DNA of 22,920 nt from a virus. The position numbers and the translations under genes are program-made. Positions 14,755 through 14,867 of the stretch are shown piece after piece. The stretch is from the IMG/VR virus record IMGVR_UViG_3300025652_000585, positions 1 to 22,920 of that record; one strand, 5' to 3'. A model generated the notes under the pieces. That model had not been told where the DNA came from. It did no database searches and saw only the letters and a program-made list of their open reading frames with translations. Numbering within the stretch: position 1 is the stretch's first letter; each line of letters starts with the position of its first letter.

Positions 14755-14826
14755 TTACTTGTTCATTACATACATTGTTACTTCAAAGCCAAATCTCATT
14801 TCTGTAGCTGATGGTTTTGTCCACAT
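14755..14826 (-). CDS. pqqA: PqqA: pyrroloquinoline quinone precursor peptide
   Basis: A 23-codon gene whose product begins [13 protein letters not shown] and ends [10 protein letters not shown]. It matches PqqA along its whole length: Trp-x-Lys-Pro near the start, R-G-EVT-Y in the second half, and Glu15 and Tyr19 at the spacing (E-x3-Y) of the two residues that PqqE/PqqD crosslink to build PQQ. The length equals classical 23-residue PqqA. It has its own extended -10 promoter and an AAGGA SD eight bases upstream, and is transcribed against the surrounding rightward genes. No pqqB-F genes are in the window, so host enzymes would process it. Probable role: raising the supply of PQQ for host quinoprotein dehydrogenases during infection. 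Confidence 0.88.
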   Translation of the reverse strand: [23 protein letters not shown]

Positions 14827-14837
14827 AGTAGTAGTCC

Positions 14838-14866
14838 TTGTTAGTTAATCAAGACTCTATTATAGC
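14838..14866 (+). promoter_or_regulatory. Possible weak promoter for the membrane-protein/DUF3310 genes
   Basis: TTGTTA (14838-14843), a 17-bp spacer and TATAGC (14861-14866), each four of six consensus. It overlaps the pqqA promoter on the other strand, so the two could interfere with each other. Confidence 0.35.
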
Positions 14867-14867
14867 A
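14859..14867 (-). promoter_or_regulatory. pqqA promoter (extended -10)
   Basis: TGC-TATAAT on the minus strand, a perfect -10 with the TGn extension; the -35 position is poor (TCAGAA). The predicted start lies about 26 bases before the pqqA ATG. The sequence TATAATAGAG is shared with the late promoter at 6023-6032. Confidence 0.7.

Follow-up and report, generated by a model that had tools for sequence, protein, structure and literature searches.

The window analysed here (IMG/VR virus record IMGVR_UViG_3300025652_000585, positions 1–22,920, taken as one whole stretch of 22,920 nucleotides) contains a gene, pqqA, for PqqA, the precursor peptide of pyrroloquinoline quinone (PQQ). Why should a phage carry the raw material of a cofactor and none of the enzymes that act on it? 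In PQQ biosynthesis PqqD binds PqqA, PqqE cross-links Glu15 and Tyr19, peptidases trim the peptide, and PqqB and PqqC finish the cofactor. PqqA is the only PQQ gene product that is consumed, at one PqqA per PQQ, while the enzymes are reused, and the peptide would thus be the component exhausted first during infection. We consider it quite probable that the phage pqqA is a stand-alone copy of the host gene, that is, an auxiliary metabolic gene supplying a consumed substrate and not an enzyme.

Identity of the gene and its likely host

The 23-residue peptide matches Pfam PF08042 with 43.3 bits (cut-off 21.1, E-value 3e-11, profile positions 1–19 of 19) and NCBIfam TIGR02107 with 40 bits (cut-off 20, positions 1–21 of 21), so that the profile check proposed by a first-pass annotation of the sequence came out far over both cut-offs. 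With a profile of the phage peptides the window gene obtained an E-value of 1.7e-19 and the next-best reading frame only about 1, and the match is therefore not due to chance. These scores, together with the codon pattern described below, rule out a chance open reading frame (ORF). The gene is the sole PqqA match within the record (Table 1), and the residues that become PQQ are present with the E-x3-Y spacing as Glu15 and Tyr19; position, strand and residue pair were all as first annotated. None of the solved structures matched the 23-aa peptide.

The phage nature of the record is seen from its genes for terminase, portal protein, lysozyme, YqaJ exonuclease and a single-strand DNA-binding protein (ssb). 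The genes at 12248–15429 all run rightward, and pqqA is opposed to them, including both of its flanking genes, as had been described. It was also correct that no other pqq gene is visible, as far as this 22.9-kb linear and possibly partial record reaches.

The window peptide and chromosomal PqqA of Methylophilaceae are identical in 22 of 23 residues, and members of this family are probably the hosts of the window phage. The likeness extends to the length, the E-x3-Y spacing and the Shine-Dalgarno (SD) motif, and the hosts also have scattered single pqqA genes. Unlike chromosomal pqqA, however, the phage copy comes without pqqBCDE, has an upstream region of its own and lies opposite to its neighbours. 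PqqA was found in all 122 Methylophilaceae genomes searched, with 1–12 copies in each, and the streamlined genomes (1.2–1.4 Mb) mostly have two or three. Several pqqA genes beside just one copy of each other pqq gene have been described (PMC4109929), as have five pqqA copies in a PQQ producer (PMC9851590). Several of the small Methylophilaceae genomes (L326–L338) have a tandem pair of pqqA genes ≈200 bp apart with differing peptides, one of which starts with MWTQP[TQ] and ends in [KR].

The enzymes of the pathway were searched for in the long viral records. PqqE was above the cut-off in 0 of 50, all 50 of which have PqqA, and PqqC was found in 0 of 48, while as a positive control the PqqC model matched exactly once per genome in eight hosts and once in the control record (9/9). 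What the phages carry is PqqA and not a pqqABCDE operon, and the pathway itself is present in the hosts (PqqA 122/122, PqqC 8/8). The earlier proposal of a substrate supplied without enzymes thus held, with the positive controls working. Methanol dehydrogenase was seen in one of the 50 long records.

Distribution among phages and retention of the peptide

A tblastn search with the window PqqA against a collection of 50,697 phage records gave 12 matches, and the same twelve records were recovered with a distant PqqA query. Nine are phages of Methylophilales/Methylophilaceae (Venkman, P19250A, MEP301, MEP401, MEP402 and four Melnitz phages), which are all of the Methylophilales phage records detected in the collection. 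These proven phage genomes span unrelated lineages, namely Venkman/P19250A, MEP301, MEP401/402 and the T4-like Melnitz. Available pairs of phage and host are Venkman with Methylophilales H5P1, P19250A with IMCC19250 and MEP401 with FZCC0133. The Venkman peptide is 100% identical to that of the window, and a block of recombination genes lies beside its gene. One further match is an unassigned phage from Manatee Spring (MW202481), where ssb also adjoins pqqA, and the last two come from an Acinetobacter assembly that is mis-named.

The name pqqA is used in none of the isolate phage records, PHROGs holds no family that matches PqqA, and the papers on Venkman, MEP301 and MEP401/402 contain no mention of pqq. 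In the Melnitz paper PQQ appears only as a medium ingredient, a vitamin in the OM43 growth medium (PMC9004378). In Melnitz-1 (MZ577095, 74848–74953) pqqA lies just before tRNA-Leu and under a coding sequence annotated on the opposite strand, Melnitz1EXVC043M_151, which is probably spurious.

PqqA loci in IMG/VR were sought by degenerate DNA patterns. The scan for the core motif found at least 120 stretches, and among the matches listed 120 of 120 encode a complete PqqA. Clustering of 190 loci by their neighbour proteins resulted in 29 groups, defined by two or more neighbour families in common; singletons, some of them short contigs, are included in this number. The neighbours include ssb, T4-like gp23, another major head gene, DNA polymerase and ribonucleotide reductase. 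The suspicion that the gene is common and overlooked in related phages was therefore justified, and it extends to unrelated phages as well.

A methanotroph-type pqqA, with a peptide ending in [YH]NR that resembles the Methylococcaceae and Methylomonas peptides in the genome set, was present in 11 viral contigs (L276, L286, L289, L291, L292, L298, L299, L301, L304, L307, and L310). One of these is 372 kb long with a T4-like gp23 gene, and has PAAR and ribonucleotide reductase genes near pqqA. The peptide type suggests that methanotroph phages may also carry pqqA; AmoC/PmoC was not found in these contigs, in a search that had no positive control.

Host DNA or chimeric contigs in the virus collections could in principle account for such findings. 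One contig among the two matches to "Acinetobacter phage MD-2021a" bears a whole chromosomal pqqABCDE cluster, and a few short IMG/VR contigs could be host-derived. Yet complete genomes of isolated phages have pqqA between phage genes, 30 further contigs have the window-type gene flanked by ssb on one side and phage genes on the other, and neither pqqC nor pqqE accompanies pqqA. As the gene is found in every detected cultured Methylophilales phage, assembly contamination is not its source; for the window and the isolates this explanation is refuted, and over all loci we give it hardly any probability. The Acinetobacter record CAKLQF020000010 (with CAKLQH020000055; chromosomal content established at least for the first) contains bacterial chromosome including pqqABCDE and is not a clean phage genome, and served as the contamination control.

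Retention of the peptide was followed by methods blind to the residues in question. A second IMG/VR scan demanded only the N-terminus, and among the matches listed all 119 peptides have 23 residues with Glu15 and Tyr19 intact. The reading frame and the E-x3-Y spacing, whose loss in close relatives would have spoken against the first-pass annotation, were kept in 7/7 YqaJ relatives with a contig extending to the locus and in 30/30 contigs found solely via the neighbouring RNA element described below. At the DNA level, 136 distinct phage pqqA genes encode 49 peptides, the window peptide is encoded by 16 different DNA sequences that are up to 10 of 72 bases apart, and pN/pS is 0.07 (columns 11–23 of the N-terminally selected set). 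Phage pqqA is under strong purifying selection as a coding gene.

These data also bear on the possibility that phage PqqA acts as a decoy or brake, occupying PqqD/PqqE and lowering or diverting PQQ synthesis. A lone peptide could compete for the host enzymes, and no partner enzymes are encoded, but in a decoy one would expect the reactive Glu or Tyr to be lost. Furthermore, at 53 of the 190 phage loci the encoded peptide equals a chromosomal PqqA in every residue, and normal turnover is expected of it. With the reactive residues unchanged throughout and so many peptides the same as host PqqA, we find a decoy quite improbable.

Expression signals and a structured RNA beside pqqA

The gene had been credited with an extended −10 promoter and an SD motif of its own, and the two parts fared differently. 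An SD-like motif is found at the right place in 138/138 distinct phage pqqA upstreams, compared with 6% of shuffles and 8% of random 60-mers. The candidate −10 element TGCTATAAT is present in the window, and an exact TATAAT occurs in 33% of the 138 upstreams (8% of shuffles, 3% of random 60-mers). The TGn of the extended form, however, was seen in only 5 of the 70 upstreams with a −10-like site, and a consensus scan showed no two-hexamer sigma-70 site upstream of the window pqqA. With TGn not conserved and TATAAT conserved only in part, the extended −10 was dropped as a conserved signature. Where both neighbours are readable, pqqA is opposite to both in 53 of 133 loci. Judged from these motifs, the translation signals of phage pqqA are strong, and a promoter is plausible but not proven.

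Table 1. Features at the pqqA locus of the window
Feature	Position	Strand	Remarks
YqaJ/RecE-like exonuclease	13789..14385	+	PF09588, phrog_434
ssb, single-strand DNA-binding protein	14318..14638	+	Convergent with pqqA; phrog_7364
Structured RNA	14649..14736	+	Three-way junction; in the 3' flank of ssb, ends 18 nt short of the convergent pqqA
pqqA	14755..14826	−	23 codons, stop TAA; PF08042, TIGR02107
Shine-Dalgarno motif	14835..14839	−	AAGGA, 8 nt 5' of ATG; seen in the sequence
Candidate extended −10 promoter element	14859..14867	−	TGCTATAAT; seen in the sequence
Small gene	14912..15148	+	Divergent from pqqA; ORF only, without family match

Between ssb and pqqA the window has a structured RNA with a folding z of −6.2. 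It consists of a closing stem (CCCTCAAG/CTTGAGGG), an optional 4-bp hairpin and a 14-bp covarying stem. Searches gave 35 matches with 21 distinct sequences, in the alignment of which 99% of the base-pair cells are paired and 14 pairs have two-sided changes; the covariation score was reached by 0/500 shuffles. Fitting the alignment to the structure biases the result in its favour, but slid versions scored far lower. All G-U wobble cells fall on the + strand (69, with 0 on −), which identifies it as the functional strand of the RNA. The element has no match in Rfam 15 and, among the loci searched, is confined to the lineage of the window. In 30 of the 30 contigs found by the RNA alone, pqqA adjoins it. 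As a guess, the RNA may terminate or shield the ssb transcript and so prevent it from extending antisense through pqqA. A TATAAT on the + strand (14704–14709) was rejected as a promoter antisense to pqqA, since it is the 3' strand of the covarying stem. A loose search with the closing stem alone yielded mostly chance pairs and was left aside.

With pqqA antisense to the rightward transcript and adjoining a conserved structured RNA, the locus could also be thought to act as an antisense or regulatory RNA, the reading frame being incidental. Against this, third positions are free while the peptide is fixed, every case has an SD motif, and the same peptide is found in phages without the RNA element. 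The codon pattern refutes a non-coding main role, and we hold this explanation to be very unlikely.

Proposed role and relation to known systems

Taking phage pqqA as a supplier of substrate, we infer that its peptide is expressed and processed by host PqqD/E, raising or sustaining PQQ output. The gene would be transcribed from its own promoter during infection, and host PqqD, PqqE, peptidases, PqqB and PqqC would convert the phage peptide to PQQ in line with the established biosynthesis, for which phage PqqA retains the reactive Glu15 and Tyr19. Once the host chromosome has been silenced or broken down by the phage, PqqA would be the first component to run short. The phage copy could then sustain or raise PQQ for the methanol dehydrogenases XoxF/MxaF, and with it the energy yield, until the end of the latent period. 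In an OM43 isolate xoxF is the most abundant transcript (PMC5120137).

Several observations weigh against this interpretation. The hosts already have several pqqA copies. Of 27 records checked, made up of 26 relatives by terminase and one distant relative by YqaJ, 12 have pqqA, and of the remainder some are fragments or stop at the locus. Two long YqaJ-bearing relatives (30 and 36 kb; terminase 83% and YqaJ ≈50% identical) contain no PqqA, either intact or decayed. The gene is thus not obligatory among structural relatives of the window phage. Finally, the four OM43 phages MEP431–434, which are in or listed with the genus Pelagivirus and are not in the collection, could be exceptions.

Alternatively, the gene might serve an extracellular or next-host PQQ pool at lysis, or an antioxidant use of PQQ, and not the methanol dehydrogenase of the infected cell. 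Uptake is conceivable, PQQ being a vitamin in the OM43 medium (PMC9004378), but the host genomes examined have their own pqqC. We regard this as improbable.

The supply of a substrate to the infected cell would follow a logic known from cyanophages, in which psbA replaces the fastest-consumed host component and thereby keeps energy metabolism going. The difference is that the product of psbA is a protein within the machine, whereas pqqA provides the raw material of a cofactor. Phage-borne pqqA is already known as a class from one report, on the Lake Baikal methylotroph phage VP_266/VP_139, a T4-like metagenomic population with pqqA and methanol dehydrogenase (PMC7678222, 2020). That phage shares with ours the methylotroph host and the proposed benefit. 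It is, however, a single population that has the dehydrogenase as well, while the gene described here stands alone and occurs in several unrelated phage types including isolates. Among the viral genes listed for reservoir sediments, pqqA also appears (PMC13188868). The large pmoC phages of methanotrophs likewise carry genes for one-carbon oxidation, but there it is an enzyme subunit, and PQQ has no occurrence in the paper (PMC7674155, 2020). Within a literature coverage without many subscription papers, such as that on P19250A, what is new is that every cultured methylophage detected has pqqA, that the gene stands alone and unannotated in lineages unrelated to each other, and that its purifying selection has been measured.

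A wider generalization can be made, to which we give about even chances: that stand-alone pqqA is near-universal and unannotated in phages of PQQ-dependent one-carbon bacteria (Methylophilales and, by peptide type, methanotrophs), having been acquired or retained by unrelated lineages since infection would exhaust the peptide substrate and not the enzymes, and that in the window lineage a new structured RNA is coupled to this locus. If true, a gene of 72 bases would steer a central energy pathway of the host through the raw material of a cofactor and not through an enzyme. Viral infection would then be tied to the oxidation of methanol in coastal and fresh waters, in which these bacteria abound. 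As the missing PHROGs match and the unnamed isolate genes illustrate, gene callers hide a class of tiny metabolic phage genes.

The only long record here with both pqqA and methanol dehydrogenase is a 72-kb viral contig (L042, also L462; IMGVR_UViG_3300025120_009955). It contains a methylotrophy cassette (L462:3990–12790) with a PQQ-dependent methanol/ethanol dehydrogenase (608 bits), a formate dehydrogenase alpha subunit (885 bits) and pqqA, directly followed by a quinoprotein-associated SoxYZ-like carrier. A phage-type ribonucleotide reductase and a DNA ligase are also encoded on this contig.
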